DNA of 38,575 nt from IMG/VR virus record IMGVR_UViG_3300042540_000959, positions 1 to 38,575 of that record. One strand, 5' to 3'. The stretch comes from a virus. The translations under genes and the position numbers were made by a program. Below the pieces are notes generated by a model. The model ran no database searches. It was not told where the DNA came from and saw only the letters and a list, made by a program, of their open reading frames with translations. Shown here piece by piece: positions 7,913 through 34,910 of the stretch (its first letter is position 1; each line of letters starts with the position of its first letter).

Positions 7913-7941
7913 TCGCCAGGGTGTGCCCCACGGGTTACAAT
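7913..7941 (+). promoter_or_regulatory. Sigma-70-type promoter, twin B
   Basis: TCGCCA at 7913-7918, a 17-base spacer and TACAAT at 7936-7941. It carries the same 16-base spacer and -10 core as the promoter at 7143. A leader motif variant, CCCCACTCGGCA, lies at 7970-7981, ahead of the gene at 7992. Confidence 0.65.
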
Positions 7942-7991
7942 TCAGAGCACAGGGGGAGACCCCACTCGGCAGCCCAGAGGCTGCGCTGAAC

Positions 7992-8249
7992 ATGACCACC
8001 GTCACCTCGGTGCCCACCGTCTGCGGCGAAGACGCCATCCATCTCGGCGACGAGGTGTGGGTCAACAACCTGGCCCCCATGGCTGGCCGCTTCGGGCTTG
8101 TTGACTGCATGCCCGGGGTGGTGGTCGGGTTCCTGCGTGACGGGAAGGACTGGCTGGTGTCGGTCAAGCAAAAGGGCACCCTGGCCCTGCCCATCACCGG
8201 AGAGGCGTGGATCCATCACGCCGATGTCAAGCAGATCACCCTCCGGTGA
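7992..8249 (+). CDS. Small beta-rich protein (85 aa)
   Basis: MTTVTSVPTVCGEDAIHLG is the preferred start, because the upstream part of the frame covers promoter and leader. HLGDEVWVNN and GVVVGFLRDGKDWLVSV suggest a small SH3-like or KOW-like barrel. That is a guess from the hydrophobic pattern only. A G+C-rich hairpin without a T run follows at 8259-8276. Confidence 0.6.
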   Translation: MTTVTSVPTVCGEDAIHLGDEVWVNNLAPMAGRFGLVDCMPGVVVGFLRDGKDWLVSVKQKGTLALPITGEAWIHHADVKQITLR

Positions 8250-16163: not shown

Positions 16164-16348
16164 GCCCCCACCCCCACCAACCGGCGAGCGGTGGTCTGTG
16201 AGCAGCCCAACCGCTCCGCAATCACCCGATAGGTGAGCCCATCGCGGCGCCAGCGGCGGGCGCGTTGCTGGCGGGATTCCGTCAGCCACAACAGGAACAG
16301 CGCGGGCAATAACAGCAGCACCAAGACGGTGCAGAGAATTGTGGTCAT
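16160..16348 (-). CDS. Membrane-anchored helix-turn-helix protein (62 aa)
   Basis: A strong N-terminal membrane helix (residues 3-23, ILCTVLVLLLLPALFLLWL) is joined to RQQRARRWRRDGLTYRVIAE and RLGCSQTTARRLVG, a compact resolvase-type helix-turn-helix. A DNA-binding motif tethered directly to the membrane is uncommon at this size. It has its own class II promoter (16389-16419) and CCACTCGCCA leader (16358-16367), and heads the operon that runs to 14684. It may be a membrane-bound regulator. Chance similarity of the HTH cannot be ruled out. Confidence 0.6.
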   Translation of the reverse strand: MTTILCTVLVLLLLPALFLLWLTESRQQRARRWRRDGLTYRVIAERLGCSQTTARRLVGVGA

Positions 16349-16388
16349 GGCAATCAGTGGCGAGTGGCGGGCCTGTGCCCGTGGTGGA

Positions 16389-16419
16389 ATCATACCGCAG
16401 CGGTTCCGGTTCCGCACCC
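16389..16419 (-). promoter_or_regulatory. Class II promoter motif (GGGTGC-N19-TATGAT)
   Basis: Read on the minus strand: GGGTGC at 16419-16414 and TATGAT at 16394-16389. The spacer contains GGAACCG, as in the sites at 20450 and 21147. It lies between the stop of the glycosyltransferase and the membrane-HTH gene. Confidence 0.6.
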
Positions 16420-16424
16420 CCCGG

Positions 16425-18797
16425 TCAGTAGTGGAACCAGTCCATCACCGACTCCAGGCGACTGGCCCAGCTGTGGCGGCGGATGATCTCAAGGATCTCG
16501 TCAGCCTCCATCTCAGCTCCCGAATCCAGCGCCTTGCGGACGTTCTTCGTAAACCCGCCCTGACTGCGCGTCACTTTCAGCTGCGGCAGATCCTCCGGCA
16601 GGTTGGGGATGTCGGTGCTGATGATCGGGATCCCCAGCGTGGCGTACACCCAGCATTTCAGCGGGTTCATCGCCGCCGTGAGATTCGTTTTCAGGTGCGG
16701 GATGATCGCCACATCAAACGTCGCCAGGTAGGCGCGCAGCTCGTCATAGGGCACTGGGCCCACGTAGCGGATGTTCCGCCGCTGTGGCAGCTGGGTGGCC
16801 ACGTGCGTGCTGCCGATCATCAGCACCAGGTCGTCAGGGTTTTTGGCTGCCACGTGCTCCACCAATGGCCAGTCCAGTTTCGACTCCAGGTTTCCGGCAT
16901 AGCCGATGATCCCCCGGAAATTGCCAGGCGCTACCAACTGCTCCCGCAGGTCGGCCACCTCTGCCGCATCCGGTGCGCCGGTAAAATCCACGCCATTGGC
17001 CACCACCTGCGCCTTCGTGGGGCTGAGTCTGCCGATGCTCTGCAGCGTGTGCCGGCAGTTGTAAAGGCCCATGTCGGCCAGATCCAGGATGGCGCGGTAG
17101 TGCTCCGTAAGTTCTGTTTTCCGCTCGGCGGATGTGTTGGGCCATGCCCTGTGATCGTCTACCACGTCGGCGATCACGTAGTCCGTGGGCAGGGCTGCGG
17201 CGATCCGCTCGGCGTGGCGGTAGTGCGGGTAAATCCAAAGGCCCACCTTGGCGCCGGGGAAACGCGCCAGGGCCTGCGCCACCAGCCCTTGGCAGTACCG
17301 CTCAATGAAGTCGCCCTGTTCAGCCACGCTGAGCCCTGCAGGCATCACCGGCGTTTTGATGGCCAGCTTGCCTTTGTCCAGCAGCCCTACCTTTTTCCGC
17401 TGCGCGTAACGGTGCAGCAACCTGTGGTGACGGTTCTGGCTCTGTTCCAGCTTGCGCAGGTCCAGCGTGCTAAGCGGTTTTTCCACCAACAGCACCTGGT
17501 CCACGTCATTTCGGCTGGCCAGGTACTTTGCCACCATGTCCACCCGCCGACCGAACACTCCAGCGTCGTTCTGTTTCCAGAGCATCAGGATGATCCGCCG
17601 GCCAGGCTCAGGCAGCCCGATCAATGATCTGGCGGCGTAACTGATCGCCCGGCGGCTGGGATGGGACAGGAGGTGGCGCATGGTGGTAGCTCCAGAGGAA
17701 TAGGACAGGTGCTGGTGCGCGAGGCGCTGATTCACCTCCCGATCGGCAGCGCTCAGTGGCTGCAGCTGGCGGATCGCGTCGGGCAGTTCGGCGGGCGACT
17801 CCACAAACGAAATCCCCCGAAACCCCCAGTCCGCCAGCATCTGCAGCGGCGGGGTAGGCGTGGCGATCAACCTGATGCCGGCCGCCAGCGCGTCGCAGGC
17901 CTTGGCCGGCAGCTGATACCGGCTGGCCTCGCGGGACTGGTCCTGCAGCAGCACCGCCGCATCAGCTAGCGCGAGGCAGGCGGGCATAGCCGCGAATGGC
18001 ACGCTGTCGATCATTGCGGCCTGATCGCCGGCTGCGCGGGTGATGTCGTTCACAATCCCTCGGTCGGGAATGCGGCCGATGAATGCCGCGCCAGCACCTG
18101 GCACCTGGGCCACGGCCTGGGCGATGACGTCGAGGCCCTTGTGCCGCTGCGGCGTGCCTAGGAACATCACCAGCGGGGTGCAGCGGCGGCGGATCTCCAG
18201 CAGCTCAGCGGGCGGATCAGCCTGCGGCGATTGAAACGCATCCAGGTCGCGCAGGTGGGCGATGATCTCCCCGCCGTGCAGCGCCTGCAGCTCGGAGTTG
18301 CAGGTGATGATGTGATCAGCGGCCTTAGTGAGCTGCTGCGCCGCCAGCGTCCAGAACGGTGAGTAAGGGGCCTCGCCAAGCCGTTCGGGGAATTGCTGCT
18401 GCAGCGCCAGCGGCGAGAGCGGGGCATCGTTCGGATCGATGAACGCCAACTCGTGATCATCGATGTCAACGATCAGCCGGGCGCCGTTGCGCTCAGCGAT
18501 GGCGATACCCAGCAGCACTGACGGCAGCCGGGCTTTGCAAGCGATCACCACGTCTGCGTCGGTGGCCGCGGCGACGCGGCGGCAGCGATCAATTAGCGCT
18601 GAGACGGTTTTGGACTCAGGGATGACGGTGATCGGCTCACCCCGCAACGGCGCCCACACCTCACGGCCTAGATGGGTGAACCCGAAGGCGATCAGCTGGA
18701 CCTCAGAGAATGCCAGCGCGGCGGCACGGGCGATCAGATGGGCCCGGCCGATGCAGTTGTGGTGGGCGTCCCACCCAATGACGATGCAGCGAGTCAT
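16425..18797 (-). CDS. Tandem glycosyltransferase, two GT-B (GT4-like) domains (790 aa)
   Basis: Start MTRCIVIGWDAHHN is preferred over an earlier frame start because it overlaps the upstream stop (ATGA). Residues 1-370 resemble a family-4 glycosyltransferase: a Rossmann-like opening, VDIDDHELAF, then VMFLGTPQRHKGLDVIAQAV as the start of the second Rossmann half and DQSREASRYQLPAKACDALA as the donor-binding region. A second GT-B-like unit spans about 390-790: YVIADVVDDHRAWPN, ANGVDFTGAPD, IIGYAGNLESKLDWPLVEHV and LTAAMNPLKCWVYATLGIPI. The double enzyme probably adds sugars to host surface glycans, altering receptors or O-antigen. Glycosylation of DNA or virion protein is also possible. It is far larger than its neighbours. 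Confidence 0.8.
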   Translation of the reverse strand: MTRCIVIGWDAHHNCIGRAHLIARAAALAFSEVQLIAFGFTHLGREVWAPLRGEPITVIPESKTVSALIDRCRRVAAATDADVVIACKARLPSVLLGIAIAERNGARLIVDIDDHELAFIDPNDAPLSPLALQQQFPERLGEAPYSPFWTLAAQQLTKAADHIITCNSELQALHGGEIIAHLRDLDAFQSPQADPPAELLEIRRRCTPLVMFLGTPQRHKGLDVIAQAVAQVPGAGAAFIGRIPDRGIVNDITRAAGDQAAMIDSVPFAAMPACLALADAAVLLQDQSREASRYQLPAKACDALAAGIRLIATPTPPLQMLADWGFRGISFVESPAELPDAIRQLQPLSAADREVNQRLAHQHLSYSSGATTMRHLLSHPSRRAISYAARSLIGLPEPGRRIILMLWKQNDAGVFGRRVDMVAKYLASRNDVDQVLLVEKPLSTLDLRKLEQSQNRHHRLLHRYAQRKKVGLLDKGKLAIKTPVMPAGLSVAEQGDFIERYCQGLVAQALARFPGAKVGLWIYPHYRHAERIAAALPTDYVIADVVDDHRAWPNTSAERKTELTEHYRAILDLADMGLYNCRHTLQSIGRLSPTKAQVVANGVDFTGAPDAAEVADLREQLVAPGNFRGIIGYAGNLESKLDWPLVEHVAAKNPDDLVLMIGSTHVATQLPQRRNIRYVGPVPYDELRAYLATFDVAIIPHLKTNLTAAMNPLKCWVYATLGIPIISTDIPNLPEDLPQLKVTRSQGGFTKNVRKALDSGAEMEADEILEIIRRHSWASRLESVMDWFHY

Positions 18798-19246
18798 GAT
18801 GTTGGGGTGGGTAGTGGCAGGGCGTGGGGGGGGAGCAGCCAGCCGCCGTAGACCATTGCTGGGTTGGCCATCTGCCAGTAGGGCGGGCCGTCTGGTGGGC
18901 ACCACCAGCATTCGCCATCAAGATCACGCCACCCTTTCTCGCGCTCCCAAGGCCGCTCAGCCACGGGCACCGGCTCGATGGTGGGGCGGGCGTAGCGGGT
19001 GCGATCTGCGGCGATAACGGCTCGGGCATAAGCGCGCCAGCCTTCGCAGTTCCAGTCCAACATCTCATTGGCTAAGTCGTCCAAGTCCTGATCACTCAGC
19101 CCCTCCGGCTCGGGCTGGGCCAGGGCGGCGCGGGCGGCTTTAACGGCATTGTGCAGGGCCTGTACGTCCTCGTCGGGCCACCTTCCACCATGCTCGTCAT
19201 ACGCCTTCACTAGGCGTTGCAGTTCGGCGCGGTAATCAGTGCTCAT
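18794..19246 (-). CDS. Hypothetical protein (150 aa)
   Basis: MSTDYRAELQRLVKAYDEHG opens a helical domain of the kind common in small phage accessory proteins. The middle has LSDQDLDDLANEMLDW, and the C-terminus has a Trp/Pro-rich ECWWCPPDGPPYW segment. ATGA overlaps at both ends tie it to the glycosyltransferase operon. Confidence 0.6.
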   Translation of the reverse strand: MSTDYRAELQRLVKAYDEHGGRWPDEDVQALHNAVKAARAALAQPEPEGLSDQDLDDLANEMLDWNCEGWRAYARAVIAADRTRYARPTIEPVPVAERPWEREKGWRDLDGECWWCPPDGPPYWQMANPAMVYGGWLLPPHALPLPTPTS

Positions 19247-25363: not shown

Positions 25364-26836
25364 TCAGATCGCTCCACCCCACGACCGCTGCAGCCGCTTC
25401 GTCGCTGCCAGCCGTTGCGCAGGGCTCAGCAACATCCTCAGCATCATCTGCCCTTGGGCCCAGCCGGGCTGCAGCCCTAGCGCTGGCTCCAGCACCTTCA
25501 GGGTTTCGTCCTCCAGCACGTCAAGGTAGTTGAGCCAGCGGCGCAGGTCCGGGGCACGCTGCTCCACCTCCAAGCGGCACCGCTCGTTCAGCAGCCGCCG
25601 CGCGACCACAGGATGCGCCTGGGCCAGCAGGTCGGGGGTGATCTCCACCAGCTTGGCGCCGGTCTCCTGCACCTCCGTATCGATCGGTTCGCCCTCGGTG
25701 ACCTCGCCGGTGTCCGGGTCAATCACTGCCTCGCGCTTCTCGCGGGGCTCCTGCACCTCTGCCTTCAGTGTCCACGCGATCTCTGCGTCGGGTGGGGGGA
25801 GCATCTTCCATGTGGGCGTGTGGTCGATGATCAGCGCTTCGGATCCGTCGGGCTTGGGGCGCAGCACGCGACCGATTAGCTGCCTGTAGAGCCGCAATGA
25901 GGCCGTGGGCCTCAGTAGCTGCAGACACGTGGCGGATGGGGTATCGAGGCCTTCATCCACGACCTGGCAGGCGCACAGCACCGTGATGCGACCGGCCTTG
26001 AAGTCGCTGAAGATCTTGGCCCGTTCCGCCGCCGGGGTGGTCCCATCTACGGCGGCAGCCGTCACACCTTCGCTGCAGTACATGGCCGCGACCTCGTGGC
26101 AGTGATCCACCGAAACGCCGACGCTGATCGTTGACAACTCCTTCGGGTTGAAGCGGCGCCAATCGGAAACGATGCTGCCGTTGATCGCCACCACCCGCTT
26201 CTCAAGGTCACTGACCGCATAATCACCGCAGCGCTTCTTCAGTCCGTCAACGCTGACAGCGTGGGGCGCAGCAAACATCCGGTAGCGAGCCAGTGCGCCG
26301 GCCTCCATCAGCTCTGCTGGCTCAGGCCCCAGGATCAGGCGGTGAAACAGCCCTGAGTCGCCCAGTCCTTTGCCGTCTGGCCTGACCGGCGTAGCGGTGA
26401 GCCCCAACATTCGCCGGGGGCTGATCGCCTGGATCGTCTTGGTCCACGTGGTCGAGGGGCTGTGATGGCATTCATCCGCCAGCAGCGTGCAGCCATGCAG
26501 CTGCTCCAGCATCTTGAGCCGGCGGCACATTGTGGGCACCATTCCGACCACCACCTTTCTGTCCAGCCTCGGGCGGCTGCCGGCAGTGATCTGGGAGATC
26601 ACGACCTTCTGGCCAAGGTGGCGATGCAGGCTGGCAACGATCTGGCTGAGGATCTCGATTCGATGGCAGATGACTACCACCTGCTCACCACGCGCAAGCG
26701 CTCTACGGGCAAGCTCAGCGAGGATGACAGTCTTGCCCGATCCTGTGCTACTGACCAGGCACGGCACCTCGCCGTTCATCATCGCGGCCTCGCCCTGCTC
26801 GACCAGCTTGGTTTGATAGTCGCGGAGGGTGAACAT
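25364..26836 (-). CDS. SF2 DNA helicase, DEAD/DEAH type (490 aa)
   Basis: Start MFTLRDYQTKLVEQG includes the Q-like motif. SSTGSGKTVILAEL (Walker A, 29-42), LLADECHH (motif II, 118-125), GLTATPVRPDG (motif III, 145-155), VVDEGLDTPSA (motif V, about 292) and RQLIGRVLRPKPDG (motif VI, 318-331). The layout and the DECH box match the Ssl2/XPB-like and phage UvsW-like helicases, which act in recombination, fork repair and the switch from early to late replication. The stop of the GIY-YIG gene overlaps its ATG. Confidence 0.85.
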   Translation of the reverse strand: MFTLRDYQTKLVEQGEAAMMNGEVPCLVSSTGSGKTVILAELARRALARGEQVVVICHRIEILSQIVASLHRHLGQKVVISQITAGSRPRLDRKVVVGMVPTMCRRLKMLEQLHGCTLLADECHHSPSTTWTKTIQAISPRRMLGLTATPVRPDGKGLGDSGLFHRLILGPEPAELMEAGALARYRMFAAPHAVSVDGLKKRCGDYAVSDLEKRVVAINGSIVSDWRRFNPKELSTISVGVSVDHCHEVAAMYCSEGVTAAAVDGTTPAAERAKIFSDFKAGRITVLCACQVVDEGLDTPSATCLQLLRPTASLRLYRQLIGRVLRPKPDGSEALIIDHTPTWKMLPPPDAEIAWTLKAEVQEPREKREAVIDPDTGEVTEGEPIDTEVQETGAKLVEITPDLLAQAHPVVARRLLNERCRLEVEQRAPDLRRWLNYLDVLEDETLKVLEPALGLQPGWAQGQMMLRMLLSPAQRLAATKRLQRSWGGAI

Positions 26837-27474
26837 CAGGCGGCCTCCGATTTTTGCGCGCGTCTTCTTTCCCAAGCCGCAATCATGGATGCTCTGACTT
26901 TGGCTCGATGTTCGGGGTCTTTCCATTTTTCTCTCATTTTTTTGGCACGCTTTTCAATAGTCTCTTGGCTTTGTTTTACCCCAGAATGCACTGCTTTAAG
27001 TTTTGCTATGTGCTCAGGAGTTAGTTTCTTCCCTGTCTTGGTTGCGCTAATTTTTGCCTTTGCCTCTGGAGTGTGAAGCCGTCCTGTCGTGACCTCGCGG
27101 ATCCTTTGCCTTGCCGCCTCACTTCTCGGCTTCCCTATTTTAGCGGCGCTCATTTTTGCCTTGGATTCTTCGCTAAAAACGTTGCCACTTGTTCCATCTC
27201 CACCGTCCGTTAAATTGCAAAGAATGCCAGCGCCCAAATCTTTCCGACCGTAAACAGCGATTAGCAACTTTTCCCATGCAAAGGCATCCTCCTCTGTCAT
27301 CTGATCAAGTATCCTTAGATTTCTGTTTAGGTCTTTCGGCATATTGATGCGCCGAGACCCTTCCCACTGCCTGCGGCCGGTCCCCTTGCCCACGTAGTAG
27401 GGCGTACCATCGTGGCGCAGAAACAGGTACACGTAGAAGCGGTTGGCGGGCTTGGCTGCTGCGCTGGCTGCCAT
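26836..27474 (-). CDS. GIY-YIG homing-type endonuclease with NUMOD3 motifs (212 aa)
   Basis: FYVYLFLRHDGTPYYVGKGT (residues 13-32) is the GIY-YIG core with its Arg in the following GRRQWEG. NUMOD3-like repeats (SEESKAKMSAAKIGKPRSE, TPEAKAKISATKTGKKLTPE) run to about residue 180. The G+C is much lower than in the flanking genes. A free-standing mobile endonuclease, probably a recent insert directly in front of the helicase start. Its start codon lies inside an inverted repeat shared with the opposite RHH gene. Confidence 0.85.
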   Translation of the reverse strand: MAASAAAKPANRFYVYLFLRHDGTPYYVGKGTGRRQWEGSRRINMPKDLNRNLRILDQMTEEDAFAWEKLLIAVYGRKDLGAGILCNLTDGGDGTSGNVFSEESKAKMSAAKIGKPRSEAARQRIREVTTGRLHTPEAKAKISATKTGKKLTPEHIAKLKAVHSGVKQSQETIEKRAKKMREKWKDPEHRAKVRASMIAAWERRRAQKSEAA

Positions 27475-27679: not shown

Positions 27680-30217
27680 GTGCAGACACCTCAAGCCGCC
27701 GCTGCAGCAGGCCCCTATGGGCCCGATCGCTGGCGCCTGGAACGCCTGCCGATGCTCGCCAGTTTCGGGCCGTTGCTCCCTGGCGCGCCTGACAAACGGC
27801 CACTCGTTGGTGACGGCTGGGAGTCCCATGCCGGCGTGCCCGTGGCCGAGCTACAGACCACGGCGCCTGAATGCGTTTGCTGGCACATCGGCGCCGCCCC
27901 TGGCCACATCGCCATCGACATTGACGGGCCGAGGGCCGCAACGTTCTGCCAACAGCATGGCTGCGAGCCGTACACAGCCGACACCTGGCGCATCGTGCGC
28001 ACCGGCAACAGCGACCGGCTGAAGCTGGTCTACACCGTCACAGCTGAGCAGAAGGCCATCCTTGCCGCCGGCGGTAAGACCGTGAAGGTCGGCATTGGCG
28101 AAGGTGGGCCCGATGACAAGGGCGAGGAGTTTGCCGTCTTTGCCAAGCACGGCACTCAGGTGGTGGTGCTGGGCCAGCACTACACCAAGGAATCTCACTT
28201 CACCGACAACGACGATCAGTACGCCTGGGCTGGCCGGCCACCTGCCGATGCGCAGCCGCTGCCGGCTGAATGGTTCGCGCTGCTGCAGGGCGTCTTTTGC
28301 GGCGATCGACCACTGCGGCCGAAAACACGACGCTCAATCTCGCCTCAGTCCACACGCGGGCCGCGCAGCTACAGCAACGCATCCGGCACCTGGCGCAACA
28401 GCAGCCAGCGGCAACCGTGCCCGATGTGCGGCCGCAACCACTCCGGCGCCTGCAGCATCCATCAGGACGGCGATTCGGTCTGGTGTTGCCACGGCGAGAC
28501 GAAATCAGCCCCTGATTGCAGCAAAAAGGGCGAGACGGTCACCGGCCACGATGGCCGCACCTGGGGTTATGTCCGCACCGAGGATCACGACAGCTTCGGC
28601 GAGCGCTCGCTGTTCGTGATCGACAAGCCCAAGCCGAAGCCTGACCCGCCAACCCCACCCCTCAACGGCGAGCAGTTCATCCCGCCTGATGCGCCGGTGG
28701 AGCTGCCGCCGTGGCAGTTGGAGCCGGATGAGGAGGGCGATGACATCGAGCGCCAAGAGCTCGCGGTTGAAATCCGCAACTACCGCGACGTGGCCGCGGC
28801 CGCTGAGCTGGCATCGATCGATCTGGCATTTCCGCCTGGCCTGGCCAGCTTCATCAACACTTACGCCAAGGAGCAGACCCTCAAGCCCTGCGGTTTCCTG
28901 CTGCCGATCCTCTGCAGCGTGTGCTCTGTCATCGGCAATCGGGTCAGGGTGGCCATGACGCCCACCCACGCATGGAAGGAGGCCTGTGTGCTATGGGGTG
29001 CCAACATCGCTACCGCCAGCTCGGGCAAGTCGCCAACCTCCGGCCCGACCACCATGCAGGCGTTCAAGCCGTGGCAGGCGCAAGAACGCAAGCGGCACGC
29101 TGATGCCCTCTCGGACTGGAAGCATCGCCGGGCCCAGGCGGAGCGCGAAGCGAAGGCTGCGGCCTCTGAGTCAGGTGGCGCCGGTGGTGATCCCATCGCC
29201 CAGTTCCTGGCAGAGAACCCTCAACCCGAGCTGCGGCACCTGCTGGTCAGCGATGCCACCTTCGAGCGGATTGAGATGATCCTCAGCAACGGATCCAATC
29301 CAGGCCTACTGGCCGTGCACGATGAGCTCGCCGGGTGGTTCTCTCAGCTGTGCCGCGCACCGAACCGCAGCGATCGGGCGAAGTGGCTCAGCCTTTACCC
29401 CGGGGAGCAGATCATCACCGACCGGGTGGGGCGCGATTCGATCTTCGTGCCTAACCCTGCCGTCTCCCTGTTCGGCAGCTTGCAGCCGGCACGACTCGAA
29501 GGCCTGTGGAAAGCGGACGCTGAGGCCAACGAAGGCATGGCGGACGCCGATGGCCTGTGGAGCCGCTTCCTGATGTTCGACCTAGGCGAGTGGGCCTACG
29601 ACTATCAGGACTCGACCGTGCTGATCGCCCCCGCGATCACCAACCTCTACAAGCAGGTGGACGCGGCCGCATCAAAGCTGCCCATCGGTGAAGACGGCGA
29701 GCCGATCATCATCACCGTGGCCGAGGATGCTAAGGCCACGATGGTGCAGTGGGTCAGACAGGCGGAGTCGTTCAAGTTCGCTGCCAGCGACCCTTCCGAC
29801 CGGCAGTACTGGGGCAAACAGCGCGGCGCCACCCTCCGCATCGCCCTAGCCATCCACGCAATCAGGCAGGCCTCTGCAGGGCTGAGCCTGAACACCCCCA
29901 TCCCTGAAGACGTGATCCGCGCCGCGATCATTTTCACGGCCCTCTTCGCCCGTGAGCGGGACAAGGTGCTCGGCCCGGTGCGAACAGGCGCAGGTGGGGC
30001 GATCAAGAGGCTGCTCGACAAGGGCCGTGAGTGGCGCCGTGGCCATGGCAGCCGCCCTGTGCCTCAGGCGCAAATCAGAGCATGGTGCCTGCCGGCGCGG
30101 CGCACCCCTGCCGCTGAGGTGCGCACCTGGCTGCTGTCCGTCGTGGCCGAGACGCCCGACTGCGGGCAGGTGATCCGCAAGGGCAAGGCCGTGGAGTGGG
30201 TGCCACCTGGCGACTGA
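27680..30217 (+). CDS. Primase-polymerase/helicase replication protein (845 aa)
   Basis: GTG start three bases after the RHH gene. Residues 1-200 look like a bifunctional prim-pol (AEP) domain, with GHIAIDIDGP giving the D-x-D pair (D80, D82) and VKVGIGEGGPDDKGEEFAV. A zinc motif is at 247-270 (CPMC, GACSIH, VWCC). The C-terminal half is a DUF3987-type P-loop ATPase: ATASSGKS (Walker A, 444-451) and LLAVHDELAG (Walker B, 543-552), followed by ISFVPNP-like and SRFLMFDLGEW regions. Such proteins synthesise primers and unwind DNA. Next to it lies a repeat array suited to origin binding. Confidence 0.8.
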   Translation: MQTPQAAAAAGPYGPDRWRLERLPMLASFGPLLPGAPDKRPLVGDGWESHAGVPVAELQTTAPECVCWHIGAAPGHIAIDIDGPRAATFCQQHGCEPYTADTWRIVRTGNSDRLKLVYTVTAEQKAILAAGGKTVKVGIGEGGPDDKGEEFAVFAKHGTQVVVLGQHYTKESHFTDNDDQYAWAGRPPADAQPLPAEWFALLQGVFCGDRPLRPKTRRSISPQSTRGPRSYSNASGTWRNSSQRQPCPMCGRNHSGACSIHQDGDSVWCCHGETKSAPDCSKKGETVTGHDGRTWGYVRTEDHDSFGERSLFVIDKPKPKPDPPTPPLNGEQFIPPDAPVELPPWQLEPDEEGDDIERQELAVEIRNYRDVAAAAELASIDLAFPPGLASFINTYAKEQTLKPCGFLLPILCSVCSVIGNRVRVAMTPTHAWKEACVLWGANIATASSGKSPTSGPTTMQAFKPWQAQERKRHADALSDWKHRRAQAEREAKAAASESGGAGGDPIAQFLAENPQPELRHLLVSDATFERIEMILSNGSNPGLLAVHDELAGWFSQLCRAPNRSDRAKWLSLYPGEQIITDRVGRDSIFVPNPAVSLFGSLQPARLEGLWKADAEANEGMADADGLWSRFLMFDLGEWAYDYQDSTVLIAPAITNLYKQVDAAASKLPIGEDGEPIIITVAEDAKATMVQWVRQAESFKFAASDPSDRQYWGKQRGATLRIALAIHAIRQASAGLSLNTPIPEDVIRAAIIFTALFARERDKVLGPVRTGAGGAIKRLLDKGREWRRGHGSRPVPQAQIRAWCLPARRTPAAEVRTWLLSVVAETPDCGQVIRKGKAVEWVPPGD

Positions 30218-30251
30218 GCCGCACTGCTGCACCGTGGCCGCAAATCCCGGC

Positions 30252-30288
30252 CACCCTCATTTCAACTGAGGGTGTGAGCTGAGCTCAC
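30252..30288 (+). terminator. Tandem hairpins after the primase-helicase gene
   Basis: CACCCTCA/TGAGGGTG (30252-30259/30267-30274) has an eight-bp stem with a seven-base loop. A second hairpin, GTGAGC/GCTCAC (30274-30288), follows, and the bases after it are GCCCTTTT. Probable terminator. Confidence 0.5.
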
Positions 30289-30292
30289 GCCC

Positions 30293-30675
30293 TTTTGGGA
30301 CACGTCCCAAAGCTGCTGCCCGGCTGTCCCATGTAGCGGCAAGCCTGTCCCTGACTGCAGTTTCAGGCGCTGGGGAGGGTGCCCACATGGGCCAGGCTGC
30401 AGCGTTTTGGGACTTTTGGGACAGTTTGGGACAGAAGTGTCCCAGAGCAAATCGACTGCGGCGCAACGGATCTGGGCAGGTTTTGGGACTTTGGGACAGC
30501 CCCTAAGAAAATACCTTTTCTATTATTTATTTAAGTATTAGTACCTAGTCCTATGGGTATGGATGGAAATGTCCCTAGAGGCGTCCCAATGTCCCCAAAC
30601 ACAGCCAACCTGCTAGCGCTGGTGCGGTTTCTGCTTTGGGACAGCGCTGTCCCAAATGTCCCAAATGTCCCAAAA
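30293..30675. other. Candidate replication origin: GGGACA iterons plus A+T-rich stretch
   Basis: No gene in 30218-30756. At least fifteen copies of TTTGGGACA or its complement TGTCCCAAA (cores at 30297, 30304, 30325, 30346, 30409, 30418, 30428, 30438, 30485, 30494, 30570, 30583, 30639, 30648, 30657 and 30666) occur in both orientations. Some are paired head to head (30293-30310 and the exact 22-base palindrome 30635-30656). An A+T-rich run lies in the middle at about 30505-30541. The layout, repeats flanking an easily melted segment next to a replication gene, fits an origin. Confidence 0.65.
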
Positions 30676-30704
30676 CCACTTCAACCCTCCGAAATCCGGT
30701 TGTT

Positions 30705-30735
30705 TGGTGCTGATGGGTGCAACTGGCGGTAGGAT
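30705..30735 (+). promoter_or_regulatory. Class II promoter motif (TGGTGC-N19-TAGGAT)
   Basis: TGGTGC at 30705-30710 and TAGGAT at 30730-30735 keep the 19-base gap. A second GGGTGC lies at 30715. The gene start is at 30757, about 22 bases downstream of the -10. Confidence 0.5.
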
Positions 30736-30756
30736 GCCCCTACCCGCCGCCATGCC

Positions 30757-31143
30757 ATGAACGTCCTGCAGCAGCTGCGCGCCGCCGTGGCCCAGGAAGG
30801 CGCCTCAACCCCTCCGCCGGTGCCCACACCCACCCCATCGCTTGCAGCCCCCGCAGCGGCGCCCCTGCGGCCCTGCCCGTTCACGTTCGGCGACTGGCTG
30901 CCCCGCACCGACCCGCAGGCCCACCCTGGAGAGGCTCAGCGCGCCGTGCTGCTGAGTGGGTTCGTGGTGGCCTGGTGGCGCCGCGAGTGGGTGCCGCCGC
31001 TGCCTATCCCTAGCTACAGCCCGCCCATCACGCTGGAGCCATACCAGCGCAACGCGATCTACCTGCCCGACGGCAGCGAGGGGGAGAGCAGCTGCTGCCC
31101 TCAGACTGCTCTGCAGCGACTCGCCGCACGTCTCGGCGCTTGA
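30757..31143 (+). CDS. Hypothetical protein (128 aa)
   Basis: MNVLQQLRAAVAQEGASTPP begins with a helix and a Pro-rich linker. The middle (CPFTFGDWLPRTDPQAHPGE) and AVLLSGFVVAWWRREWVPP look folded, followed by a C-terminus with paired Cys. First gene after the origin-like array. No family recognised. Confidence 0.55.
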   Translation: MNVLQQLRAAVAQEGASTPPPVPTPTPSLAAPAAAPLRPCPFTFGDWLPRTDPQAHPGEAQRAVLLSGFVVAWWRREWVPPLPIPSYSPPITLEPYQRNAIYLPDGSEGESSCCPQTALQRLAARLGA

Positions 31144-31146
31144 TCC

Positions 31147-31470
31147 ATGGCTAACCCCCAGAAACGCAAGGGCTCGGCCTTTGAGCGGCTGATCGCTGAC
31201 TACCTGGCCGAGCGCATCCCCTGCGAGCGCATCCCTGCCGGTGCCACCCTCGACCGCGGCGATCTTTGGACACCTAGCTGTGCAATTCAGGCGAAGTGCT
31301 GCCGCACCCTGAGCCTCGGCGCCTGGCTGCGCGATGCGATGGAGCAGCAGGTCAACGCCGGCAAGCGCCTCCACGCCCTGGTGGTGAAGCGCAAGGGCAC
31401 CACGGACCCGGCCGAGCAGTTCGTGGTGATGAGCCTGGAGCAGTTCCGCGAGCTGCTGGGCGAAGTGTGA
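31147..31470 (+). CDS. Holliday-junction-resolvase-like PD-(D/E)XK nuclease (107 aa)
   Basis: NPQKRKGSAFERLIADYLAE with Glu14, then RGDLWTP with the catalytic Asp and AIQAK in place of E-x-K, then VVKRKGTTDPAEQFVVM. The order E, G-D, (Q/E)-x-K is that of small Hjc-type resolvases and their phage relatives. Would cut branched DNA before packaging. The Gln in the third motif is unusual and may lower activity, though other phage members show variation there. Confidence 0.7.
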   Translation: MANPQKRKGSAFERLIADYLAERIPCERIPAGATLDRGDLWTPSCAIQAKCCRTLSLGAWLRDAMEQQVNAGKRLHALVVKRKGTTDPAEQFVVMSLEQFRELLGEV

Positions 31471-32045: not shown

Positions 32046-32276
32046 GTGAAGCGCGCCGCCACCCCTTGGCACCTGCTAGACCGCTCGACACCGTGGCTGG
32101 CCTGGTGGCAGGAGCTGATCCTTAACTGGGTGTCGTCGTGGAATTCCATTGGCTGCCTAACCGTTGTCAGCGCTGCTGACCCTGAAGAGTTCGCCGCATG
32201 GGATCTGCCGACTGACCTGGAGCTGCAGCGGATGGAGCTAGAGGAGCTGCTGGCCGTGGGAGAGGACGACGGGTGA
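32046..32276 (+). CDS. Small hypothetical protein (76 aa)
   Basis: GTG start VKRAATPWHLLDRSTPWLAW. A Trp-rich helical front is followed by an acidic C-terminus (DPEEFAAWDLPTDLELQRME). Stop overlaps the next start. Since it precedes morphogenesis genes it may be a head or tail accessory, but nothing shows it. Confidence 0.45.
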   Translation: MKRAATPWHLLDRSTPWLAWWQELILNWVSSWNSIGCLTVVSAADPEEFAAWDLPTDLELQRMELEELLAVGEDDG

Positions 32277-33171: not shown

Positions 33172-34316
33172 GGTTGCACGGTTGCAAAAACCATGCTCCA
33201 TAGATTGAGGTGGGCCAGCGTGGTGGAACACCTGACCCGTGACCAACCTGCGGACACAGGCTGATGAACGGATTGTACGAGCTGCTGCCAGGGCGGCCGG
33301 ATTACGATGAAAGCAAGCACCGGCTCGGCCGCCTGTGCAAGCGTGGCCACGACTGGATGGGCACAGGCCAAAGCCTGCGACGGATAAAAGGAAGTCAGTG
33401 CACTGAATGCCATAAGGTAAATAAATCTACTCCCGAAGCAAAAACTAGAATGCAAAAATGGAGGGAAGATAATGCCGACGATCAAAGGCAAAAAGCGCGC
33501 GAGAGAATGGCAAAATTGCGCCAAAACCCTGAATATGCAGAAATCTGCAGGGAAAGAAATTGCAAGTCCATGAAAAAAAATCGCGCCACAAATGGTCGCG
33601 TGCGCAACGGCTTACACGTTCCACCCAACCTGCTAGGGCACTCCCTGCAGGCCCGCGACCTTCAGGCCTTCGCCGATGCTGGCTGGGACCTGGCGGCAAT
33701 GCTCCCTGCGACCGTCTTCGAGTCGCGCAAGCTCTGGTTTTACCTGAAAAACAACCAGTCGGCACCAACGGTTGCGGAGTTGGTGGAAAGACAGGCCCTG
33801 GATATTGTTGGCGCGGAAAAGGCAGAGTTTATAGAATCCGGCGGCACAGAAGAGGAGTGGAGAAAGGAATACGCCAGGCGTCAGCATCACATCAAAATGG
33901 CAACCGACCCGGATTACGTTGCCTACATGCGGCAGAAGTCCAAGCGCCGCAAGGCACAAATGCGTGACAGCGTGGCGATTCAAGTCAAGGGCCGAGAGAT
34001 CCGCGCCAGGTTCGCCCAGTTTGACCACCGCTGCGCATACTGCGGAGCCGATGGCGACCTGCACATTGAGCACGTCGTGCCGATCAGCAAGGGCGGGCCG
34101 CATTCAATCGGCAACATCATCCCTGCGTGCGAATCCTGCAACTACAGCAAGCGCGACAGCGAGGTTGAGAGCTGGTACCGCTCACAGCCGTTCTTTAGCG
34201 AGCTGCGCTGGCGGAAGATCTGCCGGGTGCTGGGCTGGCAGCGCTCCAGTGTCGGGCAGCTGGCGCTGCTGTAGCCCGCAACCACGGCTTACGCTGGTTG
34301 CATGACGGTTGCAACC
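33172..34316 (+). other. GGTTGC words on both sides of the HNH gene (possible split cos/terminase-binding region)
   Basis: GGTTGC occurs at 33172, 33180, 34296 and 34307, and GCAACC at 34278 and 34311. The last two overlap as the ten-base palindrome GGTTGCAACC. They lie just before the HNH gene and again around the start of the small terminase gene, where lambda-type phages keep terminase binding sites. Weak evidence. Confidence 0.35.
33264..34274 (+). CDS. HNH endonuclease next to the terminase genes (336 aa)
   Basis: The N-terminus has a Cys/His pair motif, RLCKRGHDWMGTGQSLRR with CTECHK, seen in several phage HNH proteins. The basic helical middle is long. The C-terminal HNH (CAYCGADGDLHIEHVVPISK, then IIPACESCNYSKRD) has both Cys pairs and the catalytic His. 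Phage HNH enzymes beside terminase can be needed for packaging, or the gene may be a mobile insert. The first half is visibly lower in G+C, which favours a mosaic origin. Bases 33014-33263 upstream hold the inverted repeat, a CCCTTGC/GCAAGGG hairpin (33076-33092) and two GGTTGC words, and no gene. Confidence 0.8.
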   Translation: MNGLYELLPGRPDYDESKHRLGRLCKRGHDWMGTGQSLRRIKGSQCTECHKVNKSTPEAKTRMQKWREDNADDQRQKARERMAKLRQNPEYAEICRERNCKSMKKNRATNGRVRNGLHVPPNLLGHSLQARDLQAFADAGWDLAAMLPATVFESRKLWFYLKNNQSAPTVAELVERQALDIVGAEKAEFIESGGTEEEWRKEYARRQHHIKMATDPDYVAYMRQKSKRRKAQMRDSVAIQVKGREIRARFAQFDHRCAYCGADGDLHIEHVVPISKGGPHSIGNIIPACESCNYSKRDSEVESWYRSQPFFSELRWRKICRVLGWQRSSVGQLALL

Positions 34317-34910
34317 AACCAAAGCCTCAGCGCCGAGAAGGGGGCTGAGCTGATCCATCGCGAAACCGGCCGCAGCTGCTCAAGGCAGAACCTGGAGAAG
34401 CTGTGCCGGAAGGGCGCGCTGAAGGAAAGCCCCTGCGTGCTGAGCGCCTATCCGCTGCGCGTGGATGCGGGCCTGCTGGTGGCCGAGTACCTGGCCAAGG
34501 TCGCCCCGTATCAGATCGAAGCGCAGCAGCCTGCGGCCAAGGCCAAGACCGTCATCCCCAGTTCAGCGCCGCGCACCCCCAGTCGCCCGTCCAGTGATTC
34601 CGACGCTGGCGACCCTGGCGAGGTTCCCAACTACAACGAAGAGCGCGCCTGGCATGAACGCGAAAAACGATTAACCGCTGAGTTGGTTCGGCGAGAAAAA
34701 GCCGGCGAGCTGGTCTACAAGGCCGACGTGGAGCAGGCGCAGATGGCCACCGCCCTGACCCTGAAGAATCAGCTGGAGGCGCTGCCGAAGCAGATCAAAC
34801 AGCAGCTACCGCACCTGTCGATCAGCGATGAGGAAATGATCGAGCGGCTGGTGGCCAAGGTGCTCACCGCCGTGGCGGACTGGCGGATGGATCAGGAGGA
34901 AGAGGAATGA
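34302..34910 (+). CDS. Terminase small subunit, Nu1/DUF1441-like (202 aa)
   Basis: An N-terminal winged-helix/HTH (SAEKGAELIHRETGRSCSRQ, NLEKLCRKGAL) is joined to a linker rich in Pro/Ser. A coiled coil follows (HEREKRLTAELVRREKAGEL, VYKADVEQAQMATALTLKNQ) with an acidic tail. This is the arrangement of Nu1-type small subunits that bind cos DNA and hold TerL. It is directly followed by TerL with an ATGA overlap. Confidence 0.75.
   Translation: MTVATNQSLSAEKGAELIHRETGRSCSRQNLEKLCRKGALKESPCVLSAYPLRVDAGLLVAEYLAKVAPYQIEAQQPAAKAKTVIPSSAPRTPSRPSSDSDAGDPGEVPNYNEERAWHEREKRLTAELVRREKAGELVYKADVEQAQMATALTLKNQLEALPKQIKQQLPHLSISDEEMIERLVAKVLTAVADWRMDQEEEE

Follow-up and report, generated by a model that had tools for sequence, protein, structure and literature searches.

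The window analyzed here, i.e., the whole stretch of DNA, is a viral contig (38,575 bases) that harbors genes for both terminase subunits, head-tail joining, a tail fibre, an endolysin, an exonuclease, an annealing protein, and RusA. The large terminase subunit shares 60% identity with its counterpart in S-LBS1, a Synechococcus phage from Lake Bourget and the nearest isolate by terminase; therefore, the host is probably a freshwater picocyanobacterium. Probing a collection of phage DNA did not retrieve any nucleotide relative of the window. With terminase, head-tail joining, tail fibre, and endolysin genes of its own, the record does not have the gene content of a PICI satellite. The locus studied comprises the following features:

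27680–30217, plus strand: 845-aa primase-helicase with a GTG start, the proposed initiator (PF13148; PHROG DNA helicase, phrog_2373)
27680–28702, plus strand: N-terminal module, residues 1–341, exchangeable (relatives L013 and L007)
28646–28702, plus strand: linker PPTPPLNGEQFIPPDAP, left breakpoint of the exchange (DNA alignment of the window, L013, L034, and L035)
28901–29974, plus strand: DUF3987 helicase/ATPase domain (PF13148)
29987–30217, plus strand: C-terminal domain, approximately residues 770–845, candidate iteron reader (AF2 models)
30293–30499, no strand: left half of the array (counts and site list)
GGGAC cores at 30297 (plus strand) and at 30304, 30326, 30347, and 30439 (minus strand): left scattered sites
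GGGAC cores at 30409, 30418, and 30428, plus strand: left outer tandem cluster
GGGAC cores at 30485 and 30493, plus strand: left inner pair
30500–30556, no strand: A+T-rich core, where the DNA probably unwinds (highest A+T content in the record)
30566–30675, no strand: right half of the array, mirror of the left one (inverted arms of 26 nt, 88%)
GGGAC cores at 30571, 30583, and 30591 (minus strand) and at 30638 (plus strand): right inner sites
GGGAC cores at 30649, 30658, and 30667, minus strand: right outer tandem cluster
30680–30747, no strand: 68-bp right flank, marking the right-hand breakpoint (100% identity with phages of the other array type)
30757–31143, plus strand: downstream 128-aa ORF (MNVLQQL...), with no family match
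31147–31470, plus strand: RusA-like Holliday junction resolvase, the next gene of the replication/recombination module (phrog_244)

Elsewhere in the window, a NUMOD3-containing, homing-endonuclease-like ORF (26836–27474, minus strand) lies between the DEAD helicase and the DUF3987 genes; since this stretch is missing in L013 and L007, it represents an optional insertion. Moreover, two long ORFs of 464 aa (16233–17627, plus strand) and 828 aa (16425–18911, minus strand) overlap on opposite strands, and the PHROG search did not retrieve a match for either of them.

The DUF3987 profile (PF13148) matches residues 408–765 of the 845-aa protein with 162.7 bits, versus a Pfam cut-off of 27. The N-terminal module possibly comprises a primase-like part, with a Cys/His-rich segment (residues 247–280) after it; because no Pfam family matched it, the primase assignment comes from motif inspection only. 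The prim-pol family PF09250 had no match in the window, nor any for residues 1–347 at E ≤ 1, while it does match the relative L034 (39.4 bits). Concerning the C-terminal domain, two AF2 models of low confidence (pLDDT of 40 for the full-length protein and 48 for the domain) present the same helix-helix-helix-strand-strand order, and the domain is perhaps a winged helix. A PDB sequence search with a profile of the C-half matched no solved structure, the only hit being a chance one (E = 1.1), and the comparison of the C-terminal domain with P4 alpha by hhalign did not reveal any similarity.

The array starts 76 bp past the stop codon of this gene (which ends at 30217), that is, after the primase-helicase gene, where the earlier note had located it. 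Seventeen GGGAC cores, counted on both strands, are present between 30294 and 30674; they include 14 TGGGAC, 11 TTTGGGAC, and eight exact TTTGGGACA sequences. In 500 dinucleotide shuffles of the region 30250–30720, with both strands counted, the mean number of GGGAC cores was 1.26 (maximum of five in the 500), and the means for TGGGAC, TTTGGGAC, and TTTGGGACA were 0.33, 0.03, and 0.002, respectively; this bears out the claim of a repeat array at 30293–30675 with a density far beyond chance. The figure of about sixteen TTTGGGACA/TGTCCCAAA copies given in the same note is right for the GGGAC core (16–17) and imprecise for the 9-mer, of which eight copies are exact. According to a scan of the whole 38.6-kb window, neither TTTGGGAC nor TTTGGGACA occurs beyond the array. 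Inside the clusters the copies are spaced by 8–10 bp, mostly 9, and the clusters on the left of the A+T core are oriented oppositely to those on the right, which results in a mirrored layout.

The strongly A+T-rich stretch that the array was said to flank is indeed there: positions 30505–30554 are 78% A+T, and this is the richest 50-bp and 100-bp A+T segment of the whole record. The sequence TTATTTATTTAAGTATT within the core is kept among the A-type relatives. The 22-base palindrome described at 30635–30656 (TTTGGGACAGCGCTGTCCCAAA) is exact in the window record; it does not hold as a separate element, not being conserved in L005, L006, L007, and L014, and it corresponds to two convergent iterons. 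The GC skew, proposed as a check of the origin, turned out to be uninformative: its cumulative minimum falls at 32,092, about 1.4 kb from the array, which is thus not pinpointed, and gene orientation confounds it.

The array is retained in place in 14 A-type IMG/VR relatives (83–100% protein identity). In an alignment of 14 distinct A-type arrays, 77 out of 84 iteron-core columns (92%) are invariant, versus 138 out of 250 spacer columns (55%); the corresponding Fisher p = 1.8e-10 is indicative only, because the aligned sequences are related, and the definition of the cores on the window sequence slightly biases the comparison in their favour. The A+T core is largely retained in the same alignment. 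On the evidence of these columns, the iteron cores are under constraint.

A second type of array was found in L010, L011, and L013, whose residues 1–341 are 98% identical to those of the window and whose remainder (helicase and C-terminal domain) is 44% identical. Their B array, ATTCCACCC/GGGTGGAAT, is mirrored around a distinct A+T/purine-rich core, and no TGGGAC was found in the array region of these three phages; the 68 bp directly after it are identical to the window flank. Furthermore, L013 shares 97% identity with the window across 3.2 kb further upstream. The 98% identity of the N-part, the 44% identity of the rest, the new array, and the identical flank imply that the C-half and the array were exchanged as one block. 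On the left side, the PPTPPLNGEQFIPPDAP linker consists of about 50 bp of near-identical DNA common to genes with unrelated N-modules, even that of L035. In L010, L011, and L013 (in the latter at about 7934–8206), an extra short ORF (MESADTSRLITW...) separates the B array from the downstream gene; it is absent in L035.

The array type tracks the C-half in five natural domain combinations. The B-type C-half is joined to three unrelated N-modules, i.e., the window-like one of L013, that of L034 (Prim-Pol plus PriCT-2), and that of L035 and L036 (without Pfam match), and it is accompanied by the B array every time; the A-type C-half is joined to N-modules 98% and 76% identical to that of the window, with the A array every time. 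The N-module is not predictive, since it is 98% identical in L013, which has a B array, and 76% identical in L007, which has an A array. The simplest reading of the exchange is that the C-half would read the array, and the case for it from these comparisons is strong, not final: C-half and array could also co-travel merely owing to their physical adjacency, in line with the fact that the exchange is a single observed block event within one phage group.

Other possible determinants of the repeat were also considered. The downstream 128-aa ORF is unlikely to determine it because it is kept with either array type, the same gene lying beside a B array in L035. The upstream DEAD helicase is disfavoured as well, since L007 carries an A array and a DEAD helicase gene of only 68% DNA identity. 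The earlier note suggested checking the 845-aa protein or its neighbours for binding; the neighbours are disfavoured, and the likely binder is narrowed to the C-terminal half of the 845-aa protein.

The same layout was then looked for behind other helicase genes, a locus being scored as positive when the 300 bp past the stop codon contained three or more self-matches of 6-mers offset by 9 bp (lag 9). The loci were the 47 best-scoring DUF3987 matches of one phylum, Pseudomonadota, and 30 phage integrase genes served as the control. Lag-9 repeats were present at 28 out of 47 DUF3987 loci and at none of the 30 integrase loci (p = 1.3e-8); after clustering at 60% identity, 19 out of 33 DUF3987 loci were still positive (p = 1.4e-7). 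The first 30 DUF3987 loci, on sight of which the lag-9 test and its threshold of three were set, yielded 177 lag-9 and 55 lag-18 matches, versus 7 and 0–1 in their own control segments. Ten out of 17 further DUF3987 loci, unused for the choice of the threshold, had three or more matches. The VapE, DUF927, and DUF5906 families were likewise unused for choosing test and threshold, and any lag-9 match was found at 10 out of 15, 15 out of 26, and 19 out of 30 of their loci, respectively, some of the DUF5906 and VapE loci being the same genes. The repeat sequence varies between loci (e.g., CTGCTATTC, ATTCGCATA, ACGCTACAA, AACCATCAA, and CTGACAGAA). For about 40% of the surveyed DUF3987 loci, a clear 9-bp signal was not found within 300 bp, and no array was found in four out of five cyanobacterial plasmids examined.

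A period of 9 bp corresponds to three codons, and a coding origin of it is partly possible: 19 out of the 28 DUF3987 survey arrays overlap a long open forward frame. As a general cause, this is opposed by the remaining nine, which do not, by 13 arrays lying outside such frames behind VapE, DUF927, and DUF5906 genes, and by the 8–10-bp spacing in the window. At several chromosomal DUF3987 loci (L072–L075 and L079), the next frame begins at a TGATG stop overlap and crosses the iterons, which would encode tripeptide repeats.

Repeats were also observed at three further loci. In the Rhodovastum plasmid RHOAph (10.7 kb; L055, 4037–4147), an inverted repeat of about 25 bp (TGTCGACATTGTCGCTTGCGCGCG) with a pyrimidine-rich core in between directly follows the DUF3987 stop codon and is a candidate origin of a similar kind. 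A Bartonella tribocorum plasmid (L057, 3920–4420) has a long A+T-rich core between GGTTTTGAAGG repeats, located 3' of a YfjI/DUF3987 gene and again a candidate origin. 3' of its DUF3987-like primase/helicase, the Streptococcus phage Javan191 (L064, 4450–4620) harbors TTTTGTCACGCTG/CGTCCCA and TGGGACAAAA repeats, mirrored on the two sides of an A+T core, with a partial resemblance to the window iteron.

Our main reading is that the array is a replication origin and that the 845-aa DUF3987 protein binds its TTTGGGACA iterons via the C-terminal half; we give it a probability of roughly 0.87. The array, with its mirror symmetry, spacing, constraint, position, and co-exchange with the C-half, can be read from the compared sequences. 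The initiator-binding origin proposed in the earlier note is supported by position, core constraint, and co-exchange, and also by a layout that agrees with that of known origins. By analogy with P4, SaPI, Cch2, and Sfi21, the C-terminal half would bind TTTGGGACA, probably through the putative winged-helix domain (about residues 770–845), and the protein sitting on both mirrored clusters would load helicase rings at the A+T core. The core would then melt and DNA synthesis would begin there, with primers made by the N-terminal module or by a partner.

The array might instead be an operator, through which a phage regulator controls the promoter of the downstream operon, from 30757 onward. A co-directional operon does follow the array, the right flank (68 bp) is conserved and resembles a leader/promoter stretch, and initiators commonly autoregulate at their own origins. 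Nevertheless, the array occupies several hundred bp and has sites to the left as well as to the right of the A+T core, its right flank and the downstream gene stay constant when the array and the helicase C-half change together, and genes of four helicase families have this layout at their 3' side. An operator function in place of an origin is, in our opinion, unlikely; a regulatory role (autoregulation) could exist alongside the origin. A packaging site (pac/cos) read by the terminase small subunit would find some support in S-LBS1, whose array adjoins terS in the circularised map, but terS of the window starts 3.6 kb from the array. Moreover, TerS does not track the array type (identity to the window TerS of only 42% and 34% in two A-array records, and of 65% in a B-array record), which disfavours it as the determinant of the repeat and leaves the packaging function highly improbable.

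Short-repeat arrays act as centromeres in some plasmids, and the array of the window might serve partition (centromere-like) or incompatibility without any part in initiation; however, the array type follows the helicase, and no ParA/ParB-like gene was recognised among the tested ORFs, a subset of those of the window, so that we attach almost no credence to this explanation. The single strand of 30400–30680 can form a long stem (folding z = -8.9), which would be compatible with a stem-loop origin recognised by its shape, as proposed for the archaeal plasmid pRN1, where, according to PMC4234260, the origin is a stem-loop of about 100 nt 3' of orf904. Yet the fold arises because the clusters mirror each other and taken alone is no evidence for such an origin; the iteron cores are conserved as sequence, and a stem has no need of tandem repetition every 8–10 bp. 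Recognition by shape is, accordingly, very unlikely in our judgment.

A wider proposal can be made, to which we assign slightly better than even odds: an origin design shared by at least four families, with mirrored iterons spaced by about 9 bp behind DUF3987, VapE, DUF927, and DUF5906 genes, combined with an exchangeable lock-and-key cassette of C-half and array that is flanked by two short homology handles and is swapped by phages as a whole, whatever the primase module. This, in turn, would imply that origin specificity is changed by a single recombination step and that a phage could escape interference from related replicons. DUF3987 bears the name of a domain of unknown function and is, according to PMC5862659, a helicase of mobile elements by prediction only; this locus supplies it with a probable origin and points to the half of the protein that probably reads the DNA. 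The pairs of A- and B-type phages represent a natural domain swap suited to a binding experiment, and the survey suggests that many prophage, island, and plasmid origins may be found via 9-bp-spaced repeats directly behind such genes.

Like the origins of the P4/SaPI/Sfi21 type, the array of the window lies immediately 3' of a primase-helicase gene, also in all the A- and B-type relatives, and its two sets of short iterons flank an A+T-rich region. The array of S-LBS1 (CTGCCTAACCT/AGGTTAGGCAG), similarly, is located directly 3' of a prim-pol/VapE gene with a spacing of about 9 bp, and all 11 AGGTTAG copies of the genome fall within 405 bp; unlike in the window, the helicase is VapE-like (PF05272) and unrelated, and the iteron is CTGCCTAACCT. 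A term search of the paper on this phage (PMC6157547) found no mention of the array. At 34237–34641 of the S-LBS1 record (L040), about 114 bp of the array recur at the record end, either as a real duplication or as an assembly/circularisation artefact.

In P4, the crr region (cis-required for replication, according to the record annotation) immediately follows the alpha gene. As in the window, this is a position 3' of the primase-helicase gene, and the type-1 repeats, spaced by 9 bp, face opposite ways around an A+T-rich segment; P4 differs in its helicase family and in an additional ori1 about 4.5 kb away. The Sfi21 origin was reportedly described by Foley et al. in 1998. The Sfi21 ori annotated in NC_000872 is non-coding and lies directly 3' of a putative primase gene; it shares with the window the mirrored repeats (TTAGTTAC) around an A+T core, whereas it has an 8-bp spacing, another repeat sequence, and a phage of a Gram-positive host (Streptococcus) as its carrier.

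According to PMC6092414, PICI origins (SaPIbov1 and EcCICFT073) consist of two iteron sets around an A+T-rich region 3' of rep, pri-rep-ori sustains plasmid replication in PICI tests, and the layout is unique to PICIs among known bacterial replicons. According to PMC7581432, SaPI Rep binds its iterons by the C-terminal domain (Ubeda 2007, cited therein), and the isolated C-terminal domain of SCCmec Cch2 binds direct repeats just downstream of its gene. The PICI/SaPI origins thus resemble the window in having iteron sets that flank an A+T region 3' of a self-loading helicase, with a sequence that varies by element; they differ from it in the helicase, DUF3987 versus the SaPI Rep families (DUF927 or D5-type Primase_Cterm), and in the carrier, a tailed cyanophage versus a satellite island. 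SCCmec Cch2 differs from the window in having three iterons only, a D5-type helicase, and a chromosomal cassette as its setting. Finally, pRN1 has its origin 3' of a prim-pol/helicase gene as well, and the ORF904 product ends in a winged helix, but its stem-loop origin lacks iterons.

In the open-licence papers searched, no origin assigned to DUF3987 was found, and earlier descriptions may exist. The kind of origin is, in itself, already known, and its setting is new: the assignment of an origin to DUF3987, its occurrence in a cyanophage, and the clear natural exchange of C-half and array together, delimited by short homology handles, appear to be novel, and so does the indication that several helicase families have the 9-bp layout in common. 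The window locus, together with the survey, suggests that the view of this layout as exclusive to PICIs (PMC6092414) is too narrow.
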